From: Thermoanaerobaculales bacterium | Lineage (GTDB): Bacteria; Acidobacteriota; Thermoanaerobaculia; Thermoanaerobaculales; Sulfomarinibacteraceae | Length of the DNA stretch: 34,560 nt | Assembly: GCA_021107705.1 (NCBI GenBank) | Contig: JAIOSJ010000301.1 | Location: 1 to 34,560, forward strand | Direction of reading: 5' to 3' | Shown here: positions 3,042 through 25,192 of the stretch, piece after piece | How positions within the stretch are numbered: the stretch's first letter is position 1 | Layout of the letters: each line of letters opens with the position of its first letter | Made by a program: the position numbers and the translations under genes | The notes under the pieces: model-generated | What the model was told of the DNA's origin: nothing | Databases searched by the model: none | The model's input: the letters and a program-made list of their open reading frames with translations, nothing else

Positions 3042-3097
3042 ACAGATGGCTGCCATGCGTCGCCCGCAGCAGACAGCCGGTGAGAAGGTCGGGTTAG
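3042..3097 (+). repeat. 56-bp dispersed repeat, copy A
   Basis: acagatggctgccatgcgtcgcccgcagcagacagccggtgagaaggtcgggttag; 54/56 identical to 21620-21675. Confidence 0.85.
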
Positions 3098-4350
3098 CTC
3101 CCGACCAGGCGATTTCGGCCCGATCTCTTCGCTCTGTAGAGGGAGCGATCCGCGGCGCGGAGTACTTCACCGCTTTCGCTGCGATCGGCAGTCGGACCGG
3201 CGACGCCGATACTGACGGTCAGCTTCGCCTGAGGTGGTGTTTTCTTCGATTTCTTCGGTCGATCCGGTTTCTTTTGCGGACGCTCCGGTGAGCGAATGCT
3301 GAATTTGCGGTCGGCGATGGCGCGGCGGAGGTCCTCAAGATGTGGGCGGGCGGAAGCGACTGATTGGCCTGAGAAGATCAAAGCGAACTCCTCTCCGCCG
3401 TAGCGATATGCTTTGGTGCGTCCTCCGGTAGCTCTCAGACTGTCGGCGACCATTCGCAATGCCTGATCACCTGCCTGGTGGCCGTACCGATCGTTGAAGC
3501 GCTTGAAATGGTCGATATCGACCATTGCAATGGCGTAGGTACCTGTGAGACTACGGAGCGCTTCGTTGAAGGCTCTCCGCGCCGGGAGTTCGGTCAACTC
3601 GTCCAGAAAAGCCAATTTATGAGAGTCTTCCACCAGTCCCAGGAGCAGGACGAGTTGGGCTGCGGCCAGAAGCAAGGTCGCGCTCAAGAGTCCCCGATCG
3701 CCGTGCATCGCAAGAGCGCAGCAGGTCAGGACCCCCAGCATTCCGATTTCGAACACGCCACGTCGGAGTGTCAATGCCACGAGCGTGAAAACCGTAGCGA
3801 TGAGGAAGGCGAGTAGTGAGGCCTGAGGTGTTTGCGCCAGGTCAAACCACCTGCCGAATCTGTTCTCGCTCAAGCCAAGACTGAGAACCCAGCTGACCAG
3901 TGCCGGTTGAATGAAGATCGCCGCCAAGCAAATAAGAGTCGAGACTTTAACCACCGACCGATCTCGGAAGAGCCCGATCAACCCCAGGTTCAAGGGCAGA
4001 AGAATGGCGAGGGCTGCGAGTCCGGGGCCGAAACCGGTACTGATTTCTACGGTCAAAGGGCCTCGAATCAATTGGTTTGCGAGGGCGAGCGTCATGGCAG
4101 CGAGAAATATGCGGCTGCGGCGGAAACGCCAGGCCAGGATGATGCTGAAGATGGCCAAGAATTCGGTTGCCCTTTCCGCAAACGGTAAATAGGCGGAAGG
4201 AAGCTCGGTCAGACCGGTAATCCAGCCGGCCGCCGGGAGAGAAACGGCGGTTGCAATCGTGATTCTTCCGGGCAGGTTTTTCAGGCGGACCTCCAGACCT
4301 TGTTTGAGAATAGCTGAGTTGCGAGGCCGAGTTTGTGCTGATGAACACAA
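3094..4350 (-). CDS. Membrane-associated GGDEF-domain protein (putative diguanylate cyclase)
   Basis: Several hydrophobic N-terminal segments, then DELTELPARRAFNEAL...IDHFKRFNDRYGHQAGDQALR...RYGGEEFALIF...LTVSIGVA...ADRSLYRAKRSGRNRL. Start codon uncertain. Confidence 0.85.
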   Translation of the reverse strand: MCSSAQTRPRNSAILKQGLEVRLKNLPGRITIATAVSLPAAGWITGLTELPSAYLPFAERATEFLAIFSIILAWRFRRSRIFLAAMTLALANQLIRGPLTVEISTGFGPGLAALAILLPLNLGLIGLFRDRSVVKVSTLICLAAIFIQPALVSWVLSLGLSENRFGRWFDLAQTPQASLLAFLIATVFTLVALTLRRGVFEIGMLGVLTCCALAMHGDRGLLSATLLLAAAQLVLLLGLVEDSHKLAFLDELTELPARRAFNEALRSLTGTYAIAMVDIDHFKRFNDRYGHQAGDQALRMVADSLRATGGRTKAYRYGGEEFALIFSGQSVASARPHLEDLRRAIADRKFSIRSPERPQKKPDRPKKSKKTPPQAKLTVSIGVAGPTADRSESGEVLRAADRSLYRAKRSGRNRLVGS

Positions 4351-4414
4351 AGAACCTCTTGGAAACGAAAGTCATATTCATCTCGGTGGGGGATAATGTC
4401 TCTCTGGAGGTCGT

Positions 4415-5167
4415 GTGAAGAACAACGATGACCTGGGTGCAATCCTCGAGTGGGTCAATGGGTTGGATGCGGCTCGGAAGGTACGAGTGCTGGATGTGCG
4501 GGTTGGGGCCTTCTGGTCGGTTGTGCGTACGACCGAAGGCGTCGGAATGGCGTCGTCGCACTTTCCTGGGTTTCACGCCGGTAGTGTGATTCCGGTAGCG
4601 GACGCCGGGAGTCTCGGCGGGGGCTCAGCCCTCGAGCTGGCCCGTCTGTGCCTGTCTCAATCAGTCATCGAGACCTCGATCGGTGTCGCGACGCTCAACT
4701 CCCTGCTGACGTCACGTCTTGGTGAGACAACATCAGACAACGCCAGGGATCTTCTCGTTCAGTACGGGGCAGGACGGCGCATCGCCATGATCGGCCGTTT
4801 TCCCTTTGTCGATCAACTCCGTTCGGTCTGCGACGAGTTGTGGGTGTTTGAGCAGGATCAGCGGAAGGCCGACGAGTATTCGGAGAGGGATCTTGCCGAG
4901 ATGCTTCCCAAGGCCGACGTCGTGGCCGTCAGTGCTACGACGCTCATCAATCACACCTTGCCGTCCATCCTGAAATGGACCCGACCGGAGGCCTTTCGAA
5001 TGATGCTCGGGCCGAGCACCCCCCTATGTCCCGTACTGTTCGACGCTGGTTTCAACGTCTTGTGTGGGACCGTGGTTGAAGAGCCGGAAATGGTCATCCG
5101 TGTCGTTTCTCAGGGCGCCGTTACGCAGCAGATCAAGGGCGTTCGACGGGTATGCCTCTGGGCGTAG
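4415..5167 (+). CDS. DUF364/DUF4213 family protein (putative heavy-metal chelation domain)
   Basis: IGVATLNSLL, IAMIGRFPFVDQLR, ADVVAVSATTLINHTLPSIL, MMLGPSTPLCPVLFDAGFNVLCGTVVEEP resemble DUF4213-DUF364 proteins. Confidence 0.7.
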   Translation: MKNNDDLGAILEWVNGLDAARKVRVLDVRVGAFWSVVRTTEGVGMASSHFPGFHAGSVIPVADAGSLGGGSALELARLCLSQSVIETSIGVATLNSLLTSRLGETTSDNARDLLVQYGAGRRIAMIGRFPFVDQLRSVCDELWVFEQDQRKADEYSERDLAEMLPKADVVAVSATTLINHTLPSILKWTRPEAFRMMLGPSTPLCPVLFDAGFNVLCGTVVEEPEMVIRVVSQGAVTQQIKGVRRVCLWA

Positions 5168-5788: not shown

Positions 5789-6082
5789 ATGGATTTGGAT
5801 ACAGTCCTGATGCCAAATGGGGATTTCGTGTTCCGGGATATCGGAGGCGAAACGATCTTGGTTCCGGTGAGGGCGGGGGTCAGTGAGCTGGATTCCCTTT
5901 TTGCCCTCAACGAGGTTGGAGCGGTGGTGTGGAAAGGGGTGGAAGCCAGGTCCAGCGTTCAGGAGATCGTCTCGGTCGTGCGGGCTGAATTCGAGATCGA
6001 GCCGGCCGTTGCCGAAAAAGATGTTCTCGAGTTCCTGGATGTTCTGGTCGAGCGGAATCTGATTCGGCACGCTGAGGTTTGA
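5789..6082 (+). CDS. PqqD family peptide-recognition (RRE) protein
   Basis: About 97 aa; LDSLFALNEVGAVVWKGVEARSSVQEIVSVVRAEFEIEPAVAEKDVLEFLDVLVERNLI is a typical PqqD pattern; abuts a radical SAM gene. Confidence 0.85.
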   Translation: MDLDTVLMPNGDFVFRDIGGETILVPVRAGVSELDSLFALNEVGAVVWKGVEARSSVQEIVSVVRAEFEIEPAVAEKDVLEFLDVLVERNLIRHAEV

Positions 6083-7305
6083 CGGTGGCCGTGCTCAAAG
6101 AAACAGATTACGCCGAGTTCAGCAAGAGGATCCATGGGCGTGTCTCTCCGACTTCACGCCGTCCCATTAACGGCGCCATTGAAGTGACCCGGCGATGTAA
6201 TCTCTCGTGTTCGCATTGTTATAACAATCTCCCCGCAGGCGACCCCAAAGCCCGGGCTCGCGAATTGACGTTCGAGGAATACCGCAGAATTTTCGATCAG
6301 TTGGCCGAGGCGGGCACACTGTGGGTTCTATTGACGGGGGGGGAGATCTTCGCCCGGGCGGATTTTCTGGATATTTATCGCTACGCCAAACAGAAGGGTT
6401 TTCTCCTGACCCTGTTCACGAACGGCATGGCCATCAACGAGGCCCGGGCCGACTTTCTGGCTCAGTGGCGTCCCTTTGCGATCGAGATCACCCTCTACGG
6501 TGATACTCGGGAGACCTATGAGCGTTTGACTGGTGTGCCAGGCTCGTTCGATCGGGTCCGAAGGGCGATCGAGATCGTGCTTGAGCGGCAACTGCCGTTG
6601 AAGTTGAAAACAGTTGTTCTCAAGGAGAACCGACACGAGCTCGGTGCGATGAAGGAATTTGCGGAAGAGCTGGGCGTCGAATTCAAGTTTGACGCGATGA
6701 TCAACCCGCGCCTCGACGGATCCCTGGCACCTCTGGCCACACGACTCGAGCCTGCCGAAGTTGTGGCCCTCGACCTTGAGGATCCACGGCGTCTGGAGGC
6801 GTGGGATACCTTCTGCGACCATTTCCACGGGCCGGCCCAACCTCCCGAGAGGGAAGATCGTCTCTATCACTGCGGGGGCGCCGTCAACTCCTTCTCGATT
6901 GACCCGTACGGCAATCTTGGACTCTGTGGTTTTTCCCAGAAGGACCTTTTTGACCTGCGTGGCGGGAGCTTCAAGGAAGGATGGGATTCCTTTCTGGGAA
7001 AGGTCGTGGAACGCCGGGTCCGAACTGTGACCAAATGCACGACCTGCCATCTCAAGGCGCTTTGCGGAATGTGTCCGGCTTACGGGGAACTCGAGAACGG
7101 GAATCCGGAGAATCCTGTTGACCATCTCTGTCATGTCGCCCATTTGCGGGCCCATATGCTCGAACTGGAGATTTCCCCTCATGGAGAGTGTGAATACTGC
7201 CCCGGGGGCAGGGAATACGAGCTGTTGCTTTCGGAACTTTGCCGGCTAGAAGCGTGTGCCGTATTGGCCTCTGAGGACGACAAGCCTCTGAGGACGACAA
7301 TTTGA
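6079..7305 (+). CDS. Radical SAM/SPASM domain peptide-modifying enzyme
   Basis: EVTRRCNLSCSHCYNN (CxxxCxxC), LLTGGEIF, SPASM-like region YHCGGAVNSFSIDPYGNLGLC...CTTCHLKALCGMCPAY...HLC. Overlaps the PqqD stop codon; TTG at 6079 or GTG at 6085 may be the start. Confidence 0.92.
   Translation: MTVAVLKETDYAEFSKRIHGRVSPTSRRPINGAIEVTRRCNLSCSHCYNNLPAGDPKARARELTFEEYRRIFDQLAEAGTLWVLLTGGEIFARADFLDIYRYAKQKGFLLTLFTNGMAINEARADFLAQWRPFAIEITLYGDTRETYERLTGVPGSFDRVRRAIEIVLERQLPLKLKTVVLKENRHELGAMKEFAEELGVEFKFDAMINPRLDGSLAPLATRLEPAEVVALDLEDPRRLEAWDTFCDHFHGPAQPPEREDRLYHCGGAVNSFSIDPYGNLGLCGFSQKDLFDLRGGSFKEGWDSFLGKVVERRVRTVTKCTTCHLKALCGMCPAYGELENGNPENPVDHLCHVAHLRAHMLELEISPHGECEYCPGGREYELLLSELCRLEACAVLASEDDKPLRTTI
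7267..7300 (+). repeat. Perfect 17-bp tandem duplication inside the 3' end of the radical SAM gene
   Basis: gcctctgaggacgacaa repeated twice head to tail. Confidence 0.95.
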
Positions 7306-7561
7306 TCGAGGGCGATGGAATTGGCCAGTCCGGCCCCGCTCCTGGTTGATGTGCTGCGCGCATTGGGGTTTTGTCAGTCTGTTGGTCTGCTCTATAGATA
7401 TTCATCGAAGTTAGGGCTATACTTCGAATTGGAAACTATTGTGATGCCCGGGGAATCGGCCACCATAGGTTGGTGTTGTTTCTGACGGGTTCCGGGAACG
7501 TAGAGCGGGTCGATGCCATGGATGGCGAGTGAACTCCGGGGAGTGGGGTAAGAGGTGCGTA

Positions 7562-7744
7562 ATGATTAATGATGGAAGCCCAACGAAGACCGTGCAGAAA
7601 AAAGGCTATGTCAAACCGACCATCTCCGAGGTGAAACTCCGGCCGGAAGAGGCAGTCCTGGGGAACTGCAAGATCAGCGGTTCTTCCGGGCCGTTGTCGG
7701 GTAGCTGCGCATCTCCAACTACCTGCTCCGTGCTGGGTTCGTAG
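7562..7744 (+). CDS. Putative RiPP precursor peptide
   Basis: MINDGSPTKTVQKKGYVKPTISEVKLRPEEAVLGNCKISGSSGPLSGSCASPTTCSVLGS: charged leader-like region, then a short Gly/Ser/Thr/Cys-rich core. Lies between a radical SAM gene and maturation-type genes. Confidence 0.82.
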   Translation: MINDGSPTKTVQKKGYVKPTISEVKLRPEEAVLGNCKISGSSGPLSGSCASPTTCSVLGS

Positions 7745-7768
7745 CGGTGGAGTGCGAATGGGGAGAGT

Positions 7769-8692
7769 GTGAGTCACCCTGACGCCGCCGGCGTCGATTC
7801 AGGCCATGGCGCCGGCGAGACCTACAGTTTTGCCGTCGCCGGCATTGGGATCAGGATTCGCACACAGGGGTCGTCCTTTCGCCGGGAACCACGGCGGCAG
7901 GAGTTTGAGACGGTTGTGCAGGATCCTGACATAGGGCTGCGAGTGGGCCGTCGAGAGTTGGGGGCCGAGTCTCCTGGCGAGCTCGTCTTCGACTCGGGAA
8001 TGGTCTGGCGCCTCTACGATGAAGAGGGCGAACGGGTCTTCAGGTTCTTCTCGCCCCAAAGCGGTGCCGTTCCCTACAAGGAACTTCGCGTCGGGCGCGA
8101 TTATCGCGAGGGCGAAATCGTGCTCCATGAGCCATGGCAGGGTGTTGAGCTTCCGGATCCTCTGGAGTATCCCCTGGATGAGCTTCTGGTTGTTCATCGG
8201 CTGGGGCAGGGTCTGGGCGTTGAACTCCACGGTTGTGGAATCGTTGACGAGGCGGGTTTGGGCTGGCTCTTCGTCGGGCACTCCGGCGCCGGCAAGAGCA
8301 CCCTGGCGGCGCTCTGGGCCGAACGAGACGTCACGGTCCTCAGTGACGATCGGATCATCCTGCGAAAGACCGACGCCGGCATCCGGATGTTTGGAACCCC
8401 CTGGCATGGCGAGGCCGGTTTCGCCGTGGCGACCAGCGCACCACTTGCGGGAATCCTGATCGTCGAACACGGTCGCGGGAATGACATCGAGATCCTGACG
8501 CCGATTTCGACAGTCTCCGAGTTGATGGCGAGAGCCTTCGTGCCCTTTCACGAGCCGGAGGCACTCGAGACGGCCATCGACGTGCTTGGCGTTGCGGCAG
8601 CCGGTCTGCCGTGTTGCCGTTTTCGGTTCACACCCGACAGTTCCGCCATCGATCATCTCTCGAGTTGGATGCGGACGGTTACCGATGCCTGA
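7769..8692 (+). CDS. HPr kinase/phosphorylase-like P-loop protein
   Basis: VELHGCGIVDEAGLGWLFVGHSGAGKSTLAALWAERDVTVLSDDRIILRK: Walker A plus DDR motif typical of HprK-like proteins in peptide clusters. Confidence 0.8.
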   Translation: MSHPDAAGVDSGHGAGETYSFAVAGIGIRIRTQGSSFRREPRRQEFETVVQDPDIGLRVGRRELGAESPGELVFDSGMVWRLYDEEGERVFRFFSPQSGAVPYKELRVGRDYREGEIVLHEPWQGVELPDPLEYPLDELLVVHRLGQGLGVELHGCGIVDEAGLGWLFVGHSGAGKSTLAALWAERDVTVLSDDRIILRKTDAGIRMFGTPWHGEAGFAVATSAPLAGILIVEHGRGNDIEILTPISTVSELMARAFVPFHEPEALETAIDVLGVAAAGLPCCRFRFTPDSSAIDHLSSWMRTVTDA

Positions 8693-9242
8693 GCCTGTGG
8701 GACGCCTGCGGTTTCAACCGGTCTTGCGTGCTCTCTTGAACGACGGTCAGACCGTACGATTTGAAGCCCCCGGTCGAAGCATGCTGCCGACGATCCATGA
8801 TGGAGATTCCCTGGTGGTGGCACCGGTGGATCCGGCATCAATCAGTCGCGGTGACGTCATTGTCGTCGAGGGGCCGAATTGCGTTCGCGCACACCGGGTG
8901 GTGGGTGAAGGCGGTCGCAGCAGTGGCACCTTCCTCTTACGGGGTGATGCGCTGCTCCTCCGGGATGCCCCGGTTTCTCCAGAACGGGTCCTCGGCAGGG
9001 TTGCCGGGGTGGAACGTAACGGCCGTCGGTACGCGGTTCAGGGGCCGGTCGTTCGTGCAAGGGTTTTTCTGCGCCGGTCGCTGGTGGCCGTGCGCAGGTG
9101 TTTGCCGGATCCACGGCGGTGGTTTGACGGGGCTGGTTCCCGAAAGGGGCGCCCTGTCGGCGATGTTGTCTTAGGTCCAATAAGTCTCAACGAAGGCCGC
9201 AGGGACGGCGGCGCCCGAATTGACGGAGGTCGTAATGAGTAA
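8685..9242 (+). CDS. S24/S26 (signal peptidase I-like) peptidase
   Basis: VRFEAPGRSMLPTIHDGDSLVVAPVDPASISRGDVIVVEG...RAHRVVGEG...LLRGDALLLRD; Ser in SMLP, candidate His in AHRV. ATG overlaps the upstream stop by 8 nt. Confidence 0.8.
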   Translation: MPEPVGRLRFQPVLRALLNDGQTVRFEAPGRSMLPTIHDGDSLVVAPVDPASISRGDVIVVEGPNCVRAHRVVGEGGRSSGTFLLRGDALLLRDAPVSPERVLGRVAGVERNGRRYAVQGPVVRARVFLRRSLVAVRRCLPDPRRWFDGAGSRKGRPVGDVVLGPISLNEGRRDGGARIDGGRNE

Positions 9243-9297
9243 TGCAACGACGACACGGACTATGTCTCTCGACTCAGTTACAAGGGGTGGGGGGAAG

Positions 9298-12200
9298 ATG
9301 CGTTCACTCATTGTGTTGACCTCGATCGTGGCGCTTGTGATGAGCGCAGGCGTTGTGTTGGCGGATGATACGGATGTCCAATACGATACGTCCTCCGACA
9401 GCAAAACCGGATCCACGGCGGCCCACACTTTGTCGTGGTCCACCCACACCGTGGCCAACGAGAGCAACCGGTTCATGACGGTTGGCATAAGCTTGAATCA
9501 CGACACAACGACGGACGATCCGATTACGGTGGGGTCCGTGACGTGGATTGTCGGGGCCACCAAGCAGGGCTTCGGCGTCAAGCAGGCCGAGAGTTCAACG
9601 ACGGGTACCGACGCAGTGCGTGCCGAGATCTGGTCCCTTCTTGCGCCGACCACCGGATCCGGGACCGTCAAGGTCACGCTCAACAATATTTCGGTGAACG
9701 ATGAGATCATCGACACCTCGACTACGGGCAACACCGCAGTCAGCGCCGGCACCATTCACACTGGGCCGGACGGCAGCACGACGACCTTTTCTGATACCGA
9801 TGCTGCTGGATCCGCCCTGAGCACGCCCGTCGTACCCTCGTCGGTAACGATCTCTGCGACGGTGAGCAGCAGTACCGTTACCGCGACCGACGACGGAAGT
9901 GGAAACTTGACGGGAACCGGCGTCAGCTCAGGCTCCGTCAACTACAGCACCGGCGCCTGGAGCATCACATACACTACGGCGCCGGACAACTCCACGAACA
10001 TCACAGCTTCCTACAACCATGGAAAATACTCCTTCAGCGGGACCCTGGACGACTCGGAGGTGGAAACCCAATCGGTGACGATCACTGCGCAGGTGAACAG
10101 CAGCGCCGTATCGATCACGGATGACGGGAGCGGGAGCCTCTCGGGTACCAACGTCACCGGCACGATCACCTACTCATCGGGCGCGTGGACGTTGGAGTTC
10201 ACGCAAAGAGCGCCTGACAATGTAGATATCACTGCGGACTATCAGTGGCAGAACGTGGCCGATGTCATCGCGGGCGCGGTTTCGTTCTACAATGTCAACC
10301 AGACCAATCCGAGCACGAATGGTTCGGCAGGTGACGACACCGACACGACGCCGACCGTTTCGGTGACGACCGATGATCGGGATGCGGTTTTTGGCGTGGT
10401 CGCCACGACAGGTCCCGCCAATTCACTCACCAAAGCCTACAATCATATGACCGACCGATGGAATGACAACAACGGAACCGGCAGCACGGATACCAGGGCT
10501 GCAGGCTGTACGGCGCCGGGCGCTGATCCGAGCACCATCATTCGATGGACGCTGGGTGTGGCTCGTAAATCGGCCATCGCCGCAATCAACATTAAACCTA
10601 ACAACACCCCCACCGAAGCCCGCTTTGCGAAGGCCCGGGCCTTCGCGACGGAAGCCGGAACGCTGGTGACCTGGCGGACGGCTTACGAGGTTCACAATCT
10701 GGGCTTCAGGGTGTGGCGGGAAGACCAGCACGGGGAGCGTGTTCGGCTCAACCGGTCTCTCATCGCCGGGTCGGCACTGTTCGCCAGGCCGTCCACCGTG
10801 CTTAGCGTGGGGCGTTCCTACGTCTTCTGGGATGCCGAAGCCGTAGGAACATCCGACCGATACTGGTTGGAGGCGGTCGATCTGGACGGCAGTATTGAGC
10901 TGCACGGACCGTTCCTCTCCCAGCCGGTCTCCGGAGAGAAGCCGGTCCGGGACCTCGGCAATATGTCTTCGCTCAAGGCGCGGCGCCTGAGCAGTCCACC
11001 CGTGACCCAGCTGGGGCGGGATGCCTCGAAGACCAAGCTTTCCGTCAAGGCCCTTGGCGCCGGCGCGCGCAGTGGGGTTGGTCGAGCGGGCGATGCCTTT
11101 GGGCAGTGGCGCATGGCGGCGGCGCCGGTAGCCAAGATCCTGGTGGATCACGACGGATGGTATCGTGTGACCCGGGCCCAACTGGCTTCGGCGGGCTACG
11201 ATCCGGGACCCTCGGCGACGGCCCTTGTGCTGGTCAATCAGGGGCACGAAGAGCCCCTTCGGATCACCGGACTGAATGACGGTCGCCTCGACATGGAGGA
11301 CGCCATCGAGTTCTACGGGAGGGCCGTCGACACGCCGTTCACCGGTGTGAACGTCTACTGGCTCGGCGAGGGCCTACTCCCCGGGCGGCGCCTGAGCGAG
11401 GCGCCGGGGGACTCGGGGTTGGCCGAACCGGTCGCCACCTTCGCGGCGACGGTGACGCTGCAGGACCGCTCGCTCTACGTGGCGGCGGTGACCAACAACG
11501 GCGAGCGCGACAACTTCTACGGCCCGGTCGTCGGGTTCGATCCCCTGTCCCAGGTGCTCAATGTCGATGCACTGCCCCCCGAAGGCGCCCAGCAGCCTGC
11601 AATTCTGGAGATCGCGCTGCAAGGTGTGACGGCGGCGGATCATCTTATCGTGATCAGTTTTAATGATCATCAGCTTGACGAGATGGAGTTTTCGGGGAAC
11701 GAGAGCGCGGTGCAGACATTCCAGATCGATCCTTCGTGGCTGCGTCTGGGCGCCAACGAGGTCATTCTCGAGGCGCAAAACGGAGACCAGGATGTCAGTG
11801 TGACGGACTTCGGCAGTCTGACGTGGCAGCGTCCGTTCGTTGCCCATGGGAACCGTCTCGAGATGACGGCCCCACCGGGGGCGACCGTCCGGGTGAGTGG
11901 ATTCTCGGTGGGGGACATCCGTCTCTTTGACCTGTCCCACCGACATCAGCATGTCGCTATCCTCGGCGCGATCGGGCAAACCGGTGATCAAAGCTGGGCG
12001 ATCGAGGCCGTGCTCCCGGGCGTCGTTGGCGATGGTGATCGGCTTCTTTTGGCCGTGATCGACAGCGAGATCGAAGCGCCGGCCGGCCTCGAGAGCAACA
12101 GCCCGAGTTCGTGGAACACCGCGGACAACGGTGCGGCCATGGTGATCATTGCCCACTCCGACCTGCTGTCCTCGGCTCAGCGGCTTGCGGCCTACCGGAG

Positions 12201-13161
12201 TGCTCACGGCGTCTCCACGGTGGTGGTGGACGTTGCCGATCTGTACGACGAATTCTCGTGGGGGATCAAGGATTCCGAGGCCCTTCGTGTCTTCCTGAAG
12301 AGGGCCTCCGCAGTCTGGGAGAGCGTTCCGGGCTACGTCCTGCTGATGGGAGACGCCAGCGTCGATCCCAGGAACTACCTGGGCTTTGGGGACCGAGACC
12401 TCGTGCCGACGAAGATCCTGGCCACCAATCTCCTCAAGACCGCGAACGACGACTGGTTTGCGGACCTGGATGGGGACGGCTTGGCGAATCTGGCGGTGGG
12501 CCGCCTGCCGGCGGGAACGCCGCATGAAGCTGAAGCGATGGTCAACAAGATCATCGGTTATGAGCAGGAGGCGCCGGGCGCGTGGGTCAAAGACCTCACC
12601 CTGGTCGTCGACGCCGTGACGGGGGACTTCGACTTTGGGGTCGCCGTCGATGCTCTGGAAGCCCTGATTCCGAGCACTCTCGAGGCCGACCGGATCGACT
12701 TCGGTGAGATGGAGCAAGATACGGCCCGTCAGCTCATTCTGGACGCCTTCGAAGCAGGCCGGTTGCTCGTGAACTACGACGGGCACGGTTCCCAGGCGGT
12801 CTGGGTCTCCGACGATGTCTTCGGGAATGCGGACGCCCTGAGCCTCGGAAACGGCTTCAAGCTTCCGCTGGTCGTTGCCATGAACTGCCTCAACGGCCTG
12901 TTCCATGACGTTTACCAGGACAGCCTGGCCGAGGCTCTTCTCAAGAATCCGGACGGCGGCGCCGTGATGGTCTGGGCCTCCTCGGCTTTGACCGATCCCA
13001 CGGGACAAGACCTGATGAATCGGGATCTCTACCGGTCGTTGTTCGGGGGCGCCTCTCCGACGGTCGGCGACGCCGTGATAGCGGCCAAGGCCAACGTCAC
13101 CGATCAGGACACCCGGGACACCTGGATCCTGTTCGGGGATCCCAGTATGCATCTGAGATAA
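9298..13161 (+). CDS. Large secreted C25 (gingipain-like) cysteine peptidase with tandem beta domains
   Basis: Signal peptide MRSLIVLTSIVALVMSAGVVLADD. C-terminal C25 features: YVLLMGDASVDPRNYL, DDWFADLDGDGLANLAVGRLPA, catalytic-type His in LLVNYDGHGS and Cys in VVAMNCLNGLF; ends WILFGDPSMHLR. Confidence 0.88.
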   Translation: MRSLIVLTSIVALVMSAGVVLADDTDVQYDTSSDSKTGSTAAHTLSWSTHTVANESNRFMTVGISLNHDTTTDDPITVGSVTWIVGATKQGFGVKQAESSTTGTDAVRAEIWSLLAPTTGSGTVKVTLNNISVNDEIIDTSTTGNTAVSAGTIHTGPDGSTTTFSDTDAAGSALSTPVVPSSVTISATVSSSTVTATDDGSGNLTGTGVSSGSVNYSTGAWSITYTTAPDNSTNITASYNHGKYSFSGTLDDSEVETQSVTITAQVNSSAVSITDDGSGSLSGTNVTGTITYSSGAWTLEFTQRAPDNVDITADYQWQNVADVIAGAVSFYNVNQTNPSTNGSAGDDTDTTPTVSVTTDDRDAVFGVVATTGPANSLTKAYNHMTDRWNDNNGTGSTDTRAAGCTAPGADPSTIIRWTLGVARKSAIAAINIKPNNTPTEARFAKARAFATEAGTLVTWRTAYEVHNLGFRVWREDQHGERVRLNRSLIAGSALFARPSTVLSVGRSYVFWDAEAVGTSDRYWLEAVDLDGSIELHGPFLSQPVSGEKPVRDLGNMSSLKARRLSSPPVTQLGRDASKTKLSVKALGAGARSGVGRAGDAFGQWRMAAAPVAKILVDHDGWYRVTRAQLASAGYDPGPSATALVLVNQGHEEPLRITGLNDGRLDMEDAIEFYGRAVDTPFTGVNVYWLGEGLLPGRRLSEAPGDSGLAEPVATFAATVTLQDRSLYVAAVTNNGERDNFYGPVVGFDPLSQVLNVDALPPEGAQQPAILEIALQGVTAADHLIVISFNDHQLDEMEFSGNESAVQTFQIDPSWLRLGANEVILEAQNGDQDVSVTDFGSLTWQRPFVAHGNRLEMTAPPGATVRVSGFSVGDIRLFDLSHRHQHVAILGAIGQTGDQSWAIEAVLPGVVGDGDRLLLAVIDSEIEAPAGLESNSPSSWNTADNGAAMVIIAHSDLLSSAQRLAAYRSAHGVSTVVVDVADLYDEFSWGIKDSEALRVFLKRASAVWESVPGYVLLMGDASVDPRNYLGFGDRDLVPTKILATNLLKTANDDWFADLDGDGLANLAVGRLPAGTPHEAEAMVNKIIGYEQEAPGAWVKDLTLVVDAVTGDFDFGVAVDALEALIPSTLEADRIDFGEMEQDTARQLILDAFEAGRLLVNYDGHGSQAVWVSDDVFGNADALSLGNGFKLPLVVAMNCLNGLFHDVYQDSLAEALLKNPDGGAVMVWASSALTDPTGQDLMNRDLYRSLFGGASPTVGDAVIAAKANVTDQDTRDTWILFGDPSMHLR

Positions 13162-21731: not shown

Positions 21732-23456
21732 ATGTATCACAAGATTATCCAGATAGTGTTGCTTTGCGCGCTCATCCTGCTGCCGGGGTTGTCGGAGGCC
21801 GAGAAGGAATCAGGCGTCGGCGACACTGAGTTGCTCAACCTCATGCAATTTGAACTCGACCGCTCTTTCAAGAACCTGAAAAATGCCGATGAGACCCCCA
21901 TTTACTACATGCAGTACGCGGTCATCGAGAACCGCGATTTTGCTCTCGCGGTGACCAATGGCGGGCTGGAAGCGCCGATATCTTCGACCCTACGTTATCT
22001 GGATGTGGACATTCGAGTCGGCAGTCCGGAGCTTGACAATACGCACGAGATCCGCAGCGACAACTGGCGGGACAATTACACTCCACGTCGTCTGGTGCAG
22101 TTCCCTCTCGAGGCTGATCCGTTGGCGGTGCGCACGACCTTGTGGAACGAGACCGAGTATAAGCGTCGTAAGGCGCTCGACCGTTTCACCAAAGTCAAGG
22201 CCAATCGGCAATTGAAGGTCGAAGAAGAAGATACATCGGCCGATTTTTCTGCGGCACAGGCACAGCAATTCGAAGAGATCATGCCTGAACAGCTGTTCGA
22301 CGCCGAGTACTGGCGCCCCGTGCTCAAGCGTGTCGGTCAATATGGCGCCGGTTTGCCATTTGTCAAAAACTCCAGCGTGCGACTGCAGCTGACCCAGAAA
22401 ACGACCTACATGGTCAACACTGAAGGAACCCGTTTGCAGCACGGCGCGTGTTACATCCGCCTTTTCGTCAATTTCACCGGTATGGCCGAGGATGGCATGG
22501 AACTGCGACGGACCGAAGGATGGAATGCAGCTTCGTTCGGCAAGTTGCCGTCCGAAGAGGAAATCATGGCGACGTCCAGGCGATTGGGCGCAGAACTCAA
22601 AGACCTCATCGACGCGCCGGTGGTCACTCCTTTCGTCGGGCCGGCGATTCTGGTCAATCGGGCCAGTGGAGTCTTTTTCCACGAGATCTTCGGTCACCGT
22701 CTCGAAGGGCACCGCCAGAAGAGTGAAAGCGAAGGGCAGACTTTCACTAAAATGGTCGGCAAATCGGTGCTGCCGGATTTCCTCGACGTTTTGGACGACG
22801 CCACATTGGCCGACTTTGACGGCATCGACCTGCGGGGATACTACAAATTCGACGACGAAGGTGTTCCGGCGCAACCCGTGAGCATCGTTGAAAATGGTGT
22901 GCTCAAGGAATTTCTGCTGACCCGTTCACCGATCGACGGTTTCCCGCGCAGCAACGGCCATGCGCGCCGGGATTTCGGCCGCGAAGTCGTGGCTCGCATG
23001 GGCAATACGATCGTGAGATCTTCAAAAGCTTTTGAATATCAGAAGTTGCGCGAAATGCTGATCGACGAGATCAAAAAGCAAGAAAAACCTTATGGCCTGA
23101 TTTTTCAGGACATTTCAGGAGGGTTCACCATGACCGGTCGTGGTGGCACGCAAGCGTTCAAGGTCATTCCGCTCTTGGTGTACCGGGTTTTCCCGGATGG
23201 TCGTGAGGACGAAGTTGTGCGCGGCGTCGATATTGTCGGCACGCCACTGACGAGTTTCAGCAAGATCATCGCAACCGGGGACGATCCCGCCGTCTTTAAC
23301 GGTACCTGCGGAGCCGAATCGGGCTCGGTGCCGGTCAGCGCAATCTCGCCGAGCATTCTGGTGTCCGAGATCGAAGTCGAAAGGGTGCGCAAAGGCCAAG
23401 AAAAGCCGCCGCTGCTGCCACCACCCAACAAAAAGGGTCAAGGAGGTGCAGCATGA
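21732..23456 (+). CDS. Exported TldD-like metalloprotease
   Basis: Signal peptide MYHKIIQIVLLCALILLPGLSEA. Zinc motif GVFFHEIFGHRLEGHRQKSESEGQTF. C-terminal TldD-like segments such as GAESGSVPVSAISPSILV. Confidence 0.88.
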   Translation: MYHKIIQIVLLCALILLPGLSEAEKESGVGDTELLNLMQFELDRSFKNLKNADETPIYYMQYAVIENRDFALAVTNGGLEAPISSTLRYLDVDIRVGSPELDNTHEIRSDNWRDNYTPRRLVQFPLEADPLAVRTTLWNETEYKRRKALDRFTKVKANRQLKVEEEDTSADFSAAQAQQFEEIMPEQLFDAEYWRPVLKRVGQYGAGLPFVKNSSVRLQLTQKTTYMVNTEGTRLQHGACYIRLFVNFTGMAEDGMELRRTEGWNAASFGKLPSEEEIMATSRRLGAELKDLIDAPVVTPFVGPAILVNRASGVFFHEIFGHRLEGHRQKSESEGQTFTKMVGKSVLPDFLDVLDDATLADFDGIDLRGYYKFDDEGVPAQPVSIVENGVLKEFLLTRSPIDGFPRSNGHARRDFGREVVARMGNTIVRSSKAFEYQKLREMLIDEIKKQEKPYGLIFQDISGGFTMTGRGGTQAFKVIPLLVYRVFPDGREDEVVRGVDIVGTPLTSFSKIIATGDDPAVFNGTCGAESGSVPVSAISPSILVSEIEVERVRKGQEKPPLLPPPNKKGQGGAA

Positions 23457-25192
23457 AAACAGTCAAAAGAATGAGTTTTGCCATGCATTTATTGGTCATT
23501 GCGGCCTTTTTGACCGTGCCCATACAGTCGATTGCGGCAGACGATGTCATCGCCCGGGCCATGGCCGACGAGTTGGCCCGCACCAGCAAACAGCTCGTCA
23601 TGCCTGGCATGGAACCGCCCTACTTCGTCAGTTATTGCATCGAAGACGAATTCTCCGCCGAGATCATTGCTACGAACGGCGCTATCGTGGAGAGCAACCA
23701 GAAAGCGAACCGGCAATTTTTCGTCGATGTTCGGGTTGGTGATCACAAGCTCGACAACAGCTATTTCATCGGTCATTGGCGCGATCTCTTTGGGCGCCCG
23801 ATGACCATGGTCGAAGAAGACGACTATGCCGGCATCCGCCATCAACTATGGCTGTACACCGATGTCGCTTACAAAAAGGCGTTGGAGAACCTGGCCGGCA
23901 AAAAGGCATATCTCGCATCGCACCCAGTCACGGTAGAGATTCCGGATTTCGTGGCGGCCGAAAGCAGAGTCGTCGAAGATGAACCCGTTGACTTGGCTCT
24001 GGATCTAAGCTTCCGGCAGGAACAGGTGGACCAGGCATCCAAAGCCCTGGGCGCCTTTGCCGGGCTGCAGGAGTGGCAGGTGATTCTGCAGGCCGAAGCT
24101 TCGAACAAGCGTTATTTGAATTCCGAGGGAGCTCGATTTCTGAAAACGCGCAACCGGTGCATGCTCGAAATCTCGGCCACCGCCCTGGCGGCAGACGGCC
24201 AACGCCTGACCAATTTCCGTCGTCTGCTCACGGTTGACCCAGACGAGATCTTGTCTGGTGACGAGATTGTCAAAGAAGCGCAAACCGTGGCTCGAGAGCT
24301 GCTGGAGATGGCCGAGGCGCCGGCCCTCGACGAGTATGCGGGCCCGGTTTTGTTTTCGGAATGCGCCGCGGCGCAGGTTATAACGCAACTGTTTTCCGGG
24401 CAGCTCACGCCGGCTCGGTCGCCGCTCATGCAAGAGGGTTGGATGCGGCAATACATGCCCGATGCAAAGCTCGTGCGGCGGGTCAATCGAAGAGTCATGC
24501 CGGAATTCATGCATGTCACAGACGATCCAACTCGGGAGCTCTTTGACGGAGTCAAGTTGGCCGGCCACAGGTTGGTGGATGACGAAGCTGTGGCGAGTCA
24601 GAAAATCGAACTGATTAGGGCCGGGCGACTTGTCAACCTGCCCATGAGCCGCCGGCCGAGCAAGAAGATCCGCAGCTCCAACGGCCATGCCAGTCTGTTG
24701 GACAACCAGTGGATCGTACCGACCGTTTCGAGCCTGTTTGTCGAAAGCGACAAGACAAAGACAGAAGCGGAGTTGCTGACCGACCTGCGTAAGACGGCCG
24801 GCGAGTTCGGCAATGAGTATGGCCTGTTGGTCAAGCGACTCGACCGGCCGGAAATCTCTTCACGCTACAGCTGGTCGACTGAGCAAGAAGCATCGACCGA
24901 GCTCATGACTGATCCTTTGATCATGTACAAAGTCTATGTGGATGACGGCCGCGTGGAACCCGTGCGGGGCTTGACCCCCGACGACATCACCGTGCGCAGT
25001 TTGCGCGACATCATCGCTATCGGTGACACGGTGAAGGCGTTCAACATGTTGGTGTCGACGAGCATCCAGCCGGATGCCTATGCGGTGACGGTCGTCACAG
25101 GGTCGATTCTCATTGAAGACGCCGGTTTTAAAGCTGTTACAAGCCGTGAACCTCTTCCGGTGAGTACGAGACCGTTGGTTGCCGCGAAATAG
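23453..25192 (+). CDS. Exported TldE/PmbA-like partner lacking the HExxxH zinc motif
   Basis: ATGA overlap with the upstream gene. Signal peptide MSFAMHLLVIAAFLTVPIQSIAA. Region equivalent to HEIFGHRLEGH reads SECAAAQVITQLFSGQ. Shared PxxFDG(V/I)xLxG and SNGHA segments. Confidence 0.82.
   Translation: MKTVKRMSFAMHLLVIAAFLTVPIQSIAADDVIARAMADELARTSKQLVMPGMEPPYFVSYCIEDEFSAEIIATNGAIVESNQKANRQFFVDVRVGDHKLDNSYFIGHWRDLFGRPMTMVEEDDYAGIRHQLWLYTDVAYKKALENLAGKKAYLASHPVTVEIPDFVAAESRVVEDEPVDLALDLSFRQEQVDQASKALGAFAGLQEWQVILQAEASNKRYLNSEGARFLKTRNRCMLEISATALAADGQRLTNFRRLLTVDPDEILSGDEIVKEAQTVARELLEMAEAPALDEYAGPVLFSECAAAQVITQLFSGQLTPARSPLMQEGWMRQYMPDAKLVRRVNRRVMPEFMHVTDDPTRELFDGVKLAGHRLVDDEAVASQKIELIRAGRLVNLPMSRRPSKKIRSSNGHASLLDNQWIVPTVSSLFVESDKTKTEAELLTDLRKTAGEFGNEYGLLVKRLDRPEISSRYSWSTEQEASTELMTDPLIMYKVYVDDGRVEPVRGLTPDDITVRSLRDIIAIGDTVKAFNMLVSTSIQPDAYAVTVVTGSILIEDAGFKAVTSREPLPVSTRPLVAAK

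Follow-up and report, generated by a model that had tools for sequence, protein, structure and literature searches.

A conserved six-gene cassette encoding a radical SAM/SPASM enzyme, an HprK-like kinase and two predicted peptidases, a probable RiPP pathway

The window, meaning the whole stretch of 34,560 nucleotides analysed (contig C265 of a 4.3 Mb assembly that is 95% complete), carries six co-directional genes on the forward strand between positions 5789 and 13161. They encode a PqqD-family protein, a discrete RiPP recognition element (RRE; 5789–6082; PF05402, E = 9.4e-17), a radical SAM/SPASM enzyme (rSAM; 6079–7305; PF04055, E = 3.3e-22) starting at TTG 6079 or GTG 6085, a precursor peptide of 60 aa (about 7562–7744), an HprK-like putative peptide kinase (7769–8692), a predicted S26/S24-like Ser/His peptidase (8685–9242; PF00717, 24.7 bits against a cut-off of 23.3) and a C25 protease of the PorU/gingipain type (9235–13161; PF01364, E = 3e-84, 283.8 bits against a cut-off of 23). 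Three gene boundaries overlap: the PqqD stop with TTG 6079 by 4 bases, the kinase stop with the S26 ATG at 8685 by 8 bases, and the S26 stop with the C25 ATG at 9235 by 8 bases. Pfam matches and ORF coordinates bear out the five genes of the original prediction, with their order, position and the two overlaps it had named. It had placed the end of the cluster at 9242, which is ruled out by the overlapping, conserved C25 gene, the sixth member of the cassette. Promoter and terminator scans returned near-chance or uninformative matches.

An rSAM profile scan of about 85,000 species, one genome each, recovered 133 relatives, of which 80 loci were examined. The precursor was matched at 77 of these loci, PqqD at 75, the kinase at 73, the S26-like protein at 64 and the window's C25 protein at 46, many of the absences falling at contig ends. 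The seven loci that miss the kinase do so at contig ends or through a relocated gene. Where enough flank was available, the exact order PqqD–rSAM–precursor–kinase–S26 is kept in 41 of 50 loci. Neither the precursor matches nor this shared order is due to chance, and the order, whose conservation the original prediction had proposed to check, is not unique to the source genome. A census of neighbouring ORFs found outer genes that are syntenic in some lineages and no conserved exporter; an ABC exporter occurs at 7 of the 80 loci, in varying positions. By record label, the carriers are mainly Acidobacteriota of several classes, followed by Myxococcales, Nitrospirae, Deltaproteobacteria and others, labels that may err for MAGs. 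Two loci (L066 and L078) lie in public MAGs labelled Bordetella parapertussis, which look like mislabelled bins.

ATG 7562, rather than the first GTG of its ORF (7529), is the probable start of the precursor, because homologues align from that ATG. Its leader carries the motif Y16..P19, Cys residues occupy positions 36, 49 and 55, and the last residue is Ser60. The Y..P element is similar to YxxP, a motif found in lasso leaders and in further substrates of discrete RREs (PMC10368454, PMC12710340). Common to the 77 complete precursors, counting the window's, are a Y..P stretch rich in K/R, the sequence LRPEEAVLG.CK, a GP-containing variable stretch, two further Cys and a terminal GS that is rarely replaced by AS, LS or VS. 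In their alignment, whose members share ancestry and are not 77 independent cases, no substitution occurs at the Tyr, Pro, Val, first Cys, Lys, third Cys or last Ser (77/77), and 72 sequences have the second Cys in its column. Entropy is zero at the last Ser and above 3 bits at positions −3, −5 and −7. The precursor is thus a true conserved family, found at 77 of 80 loci, which answers the reservation attached to the original prediction that it might not be conserved; it matches no NCBIfam model. Val at −3 and Gly at −1 precede the first Cys, which is compatible with the (−3,−1) rule of signal peptidases, and a putative cut lies after Gly34, between VLG and xCK.

For the PqqD protein, the best NCBIfam model is lasso_PqqD_Bac, at 46 bits against a cut-off of 80. 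The rSAM has a CX3CX2C motif (Cys40/44/47) and SPASM-type Cys at 265, 283, 320, 323, 329, 332 and 351, plus Cys371/374; the rSAM and SPASM-type Cys are invariant among nine homologues. The nearest solved structures are PqqE and SkfB, and SkfB and CteB are distant structural relatives only. In the NCBIfam comparison, the enzyme stays far under every cut-off, its best score being 108.6 against 500 bits and another 103.3 against 265. The three conserved Cys of the precursor are compatible with thioether crosslinks. An extra Cys-rich C-terminal tail, C(5)CGxCS, is present in the homologues at L035:9555–10817, L036:9260–10534 and L040:7389–8648 and lacking in the window's copy. The source genome also holds another rSAM gene (L049:8421–10204, contig C190), 36% identical and directly 3′ of a weakly kinase-like ORF; this second locus yielded no convincing precursor.

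The similarity of the kinase to HprK is weak in sequence (PF07475, E = 6e-5, under the cut-off; PDB HprK, E = 2e-4), and its AlphaFold model (pLDDT 93) matches the HprK and PEPCK structures. H154, G170, G175, K176, D193 and D194 are invariant among 32 homologues, S177 being Thr in some, and the kinase has every catalytic residue reported for BsfK and its relatives (H154, G170, G173, G175, K176, S/T177, D193 and D194). BsfK needs H148, G163, K169, S170, D186 and D187 (PMC10368454), which correspond by spacing to H154, G170, K176, S177, D193 and D194. Earlier lasso kinases phosphorylate a C-terminal Ser, and BsfK phosphorylates Ser3 of a precursor that ends in Asp (PMC10368454). Taking the BsfK-like catalytic residues, the target of the earlier lasso kinases and the invariant last Ser together, the cassette kinase quite probably phosphorylates the C-terminal Ser of the precursor; the Ser3 target of the related BsfK counts against this assignment. 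The invariant Ser also sharpens the remark in the original prediction that HprK-like proteins occur in some lasso-peptide clusters, which our comparison supports. This residue is kept in L115, whose genome has no C25, and in G056 (locus L076), whose genome has no S26, and therefore tracks neither peptidase. L132 is the only flanked locus without a kinase, and its genome has the kinase on another contig, immediately followed by an S26 gene. A separate rSAM/kinase/S26-like cluster at L061:312–3529 has a candidate precursor (1587–1772) that ends in GG, which counts against a terminal-Ser rule.

In the S26-like protein, Ser32 and His70 are invariant among 37 homologues, and an RGD stretch is invariant or nearly so; Sec11/SipW-type enzymes likewise have a Ser/His dyad. 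The structure model matches SpsB (Foldseek E = 5e-4), SipA and LexA, and together with the PF00717 match and the invariant Ser32 and His70 it gives the protein the signal peptidase/S24 fold and its catalytic Ser. No membrane helices are predicted in the window's copy. The C25 protein has a predicted signal sequence, a long N-terminal region, and His1184 and Cys1218 (counted from ATG 9235) as catalytic residues; the His is kept in 31 of 31 homologues and the Cys in 30 of 31, as expected of the C25 family, and PorU in the PDB is matched at E = 1e-18.

At 14 loci a single uninterrupted ORF holds both peptidases; in six more genomes the ORF of S26 continues into the genome's only C25, the open frames spanning about 3000 aa, which makes at least 20 fusions in total. 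Pfam confirms the fusion in L087 (S24, 28.2 bits against a cut-off of 23.3; DUF11 repeats; C25, 286 bits). By simple hydropathy, most fusions have their first hydrophobic helix about 65–100 residues past the S26 His; L066, L111 and L118 have none by this measure. This arrangement suggests that S26 is cytosolic and C25 lies outside the membrane, because the helix of the fusions falls at the place of the signal sequence in free C25 proteins. Among 37 loci with both flanks, the C25 domain is present in 20, a further 12 are cut by the end of the retrieved stretch or interrupted ahead of the domain (6 of these resolved as C25), and five (L061, L069, L070, L071 and L115) have no C25 nearby; in L115, none was found in the genome. 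Nucleotidyltransferase genes of the NTP_transf_5 family (PF14907), known from kinase-bearing lasso clusters, lie near cassettes without C25 at L061:13090–14205 and L073:1196–2335. In G056, no S26 was matched in the genome, yet the precursor retains VLG, and S26 therefore cannot be the sole leader peptidase. Among the few genomes searched whole for S26 or C25, none was shown to lack both.

In G042, a distant relative of the cassette carries another type of precursor, and a search with this precursor hit 28 of the 152 genomes of the class. This second family reads loosely [YW]..PRIL.REPLE..A..C.P.PAK....C..GPISS and differs from the first in its core and leader end. It is seen at L045:2321–2488 and 7879–8049, where two C25–precursor pairs stand in tandem, at L138–L160 and at L162; all its members end in Ser, L161 aside, which was rejected as a chance match. 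Among 24 stretches of 3 kb, the neighbours include an rSAM in 17, C25 in 12 and a kinase in 6, and five stretches have none of the three within 1.5 kb. G042 has two C25 genes with a precursor gene directly after each, and G112 has three precursors on one contig, about 5.4 kb apart. Intermediate precursors that end in GS, with C25 close by, occur in L041, L042 and L044. A supposed precursor–C25 fusion in L146 was ruled out, the two being in different frames.

At 77 of 80 loci a precursor with a leader motif adjoins an RRE and a modifying enzyme, as is generally expected of a RiPP locus, and the cassette is very probably a RiPP cassette. The conserved precursor family and the PqqD and rSAM genes uphold this part of the original prediction; its further claim, of a complete pathway in five genes, goes too far, C25 having been missed, a conserved exporter being absent from the census and cleavage by the S26-like protein being putative. 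On sequence evidence, the best reading is a widespread, undescribed class of rSAM RiPP with putative phosphorylation and a two-peptidase module. The PqqD protein would bind the Y..P leader motif and present the precursor to the rSAM, which would most likely use radical chemistry to form crosslinks (thioether or similar) at these conserved residues, the precursor's Cys. The kinase would phosphorylate the invariant C-terminal Ser, the S26-like peptidase would remove the leader on the cytosolic side, probably at the VLG site, and the exported C25 would carry out the last, extracytoplasmic step, in which the peptide is trimmed, released or transferred. A six-gene RiPP pathway that includes these steps is the best explanation and, on balance, a probable one, supported by the conserved order, the invariant precursor residues, the S26–C25 fusions and the second family of Ser-ending precursors. 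For its parts, S26 has about an even chance of being the leader peptidase, and the chance that C25 acts on the peptide falls slightly short of even.

The close tie between precursor and C25 could also mean that the peptide is a partner of C25 and not diffusible: a modified phosphopeptide would inhibit, activate or be conjugated by the PorU-like protease, and the other genes would only make the peptide. C25 is the sixth gene, adjacent or fused at most loci, and the C25–precursor pairs of G042 and the spacing of the three precursors in G112 point the same way. However, the L115 cassette stands in a genome without any C25, L061 and L073 have a nucleotidyltransferase gene nearby instead, and the core varies strongly, as would not be expected of a peptide that fits closely to a conserved enzyme; we consider a partner role fairly unlikely. 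It is improbable, too, that the precursor is no substrate of the kinase and peptidases, the kinase being regulatory, as HprK itself is, and S26 and C25 forming an independent pair for processing surface proteins that accompanies the cassette. The adhesin-like repeats of C25 proteins (DUF11 in L087) and the fusion of S26 and C25 to each other, not to the RiPP genes, would fit such a pair, whereas the presence of the kinase at 73 of 80 loci, the invariant C-terminal Ser and the position of S26 directly after the kinase even when relocated from the cassette argue against it. Returning to the six-gene RiPP pathway, a speculative and rather unlikely form of it would be a RiPP with its own sortase, in which a crosslinked, C-terminally phosphorylated peptide is passed across the membrane to the PorU-like C25, joined to the cytosolic S26, and trimmed or ligated to the cell surface.

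Several characterised systems share parts of the cassette. Kinase-type lasso clusters (paeninodin type; ThcoK, SyanK, BsfK) likewise have a discrete PqqD-like RRE, a YxxP leader motif, an HprK-like kinase with the same catalytic residues and a precursor with a C-terminal Ser, the known substrate site in several lasso systems. In the cassette, however, the rSAM/SPASM enzyme, the S26-like protein and C25 replace the leader peptidase B2 and cyclase C, neither of which turned up among the six genes when the cassette and its neighbours at 3094–5167 were scanned with Pfam and NCBIfam models. Systems of the sactipeptide/ranthipeptide type (SkfB, AlbA, StsB, CteB) also pair a SPASM rSAM and an RRE with a Cys-bearing precursor, as we infer for the cassette; the cassette differs in adding a kinase and C25, its rSAM falls far under the maturase cut-offs (StsB, 78.5 against 625 bits; AlbA, 62.6 against 850), and its crosslinks are putative. 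SynChlorMet (Scm) likewise has a PqqD-like protein and SPASM rSAM enzymes, and its ScmC is weakly resembled by the cassette kinase, but the cassette has one rSAM rather than two, no precursor match, and S26 and C25 in addition; the scores are 12.1 against 125 bits for ScmC, 33.7 against 100 for ScmD, 78.9 against 400 for ScmE and 61.1 against 400 for ScmF. The HPr-rel-A/HprK-rel-B models gave 13.3 against 200 (TIGR04352) and 28.9 against 200 bits (TIGR04355), and the GeoRSP rSAM model 58 against 400. The C25 domain, with its His/Cys dyad, is shared with the T9SS sortase PorU and gingipains, and the PorU model NF033707 aligns over residues 637–1312 (ORF from 9220) at 229.2 bits against a cut-off of 420; unlike PorU, the cassette C25 is joined or fused to an S26-like peptidase inside a peptide-modification operon.

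Of the NCBIfam systems tried, SynChlorMet, GeoRSP, HPr-rel, PQQ, mycofactocin and the sactipeptide maturases were all rejected with scores far under cut-off, in keeping with the original statement that the cluster fits no textbook class. That the cassette belongs to SynChlorMet, GeoRSP, HPr-rel or a lasso cluster, as the overlapping parts (PqqD-like, rSAM, HprK-like/ScmC-like) and weak model matches might suggest, is very improbable given these scores, a precursor that no model matches and the missing lasso leader peptidase and cyclase. NCBIfam holds no maturase family with this gene combination, a literature search, mostly of journals outside subscription, gave no description of the gene set, and no characterised rSAM family with the same genes was found; the original prediction had named membership of such a family as telling against it.

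The cassette recurs across dozens of species, many in little-cultured Acidobacteriota, and may be a common, overlooked peptide system. If the proposed pathway is right, it would unite rSAM chemistry and C-terminal Ser phosphorylation in one peptide, a pairing not found in the literature searched, and would offer a genomic rule by which an HprK-like kinase in a cluster predicts Ser as the last residue of the precursor. It would also pair a signal-peptidase-like enzyme with an exported caspase-fold protease in one fused protein, apparently on opposite sides of the membrane. Elsewhere in the window, a DUF364/DUF4213 gene (putative heavy-metal chelation) lies upstream of the cassette at 4415–5167, and positions 21732–25192 hold a tandem pair of paralogous exported proteins, of which the first and not the second carries HEIFGH, TldD/PmbA-like by eye.
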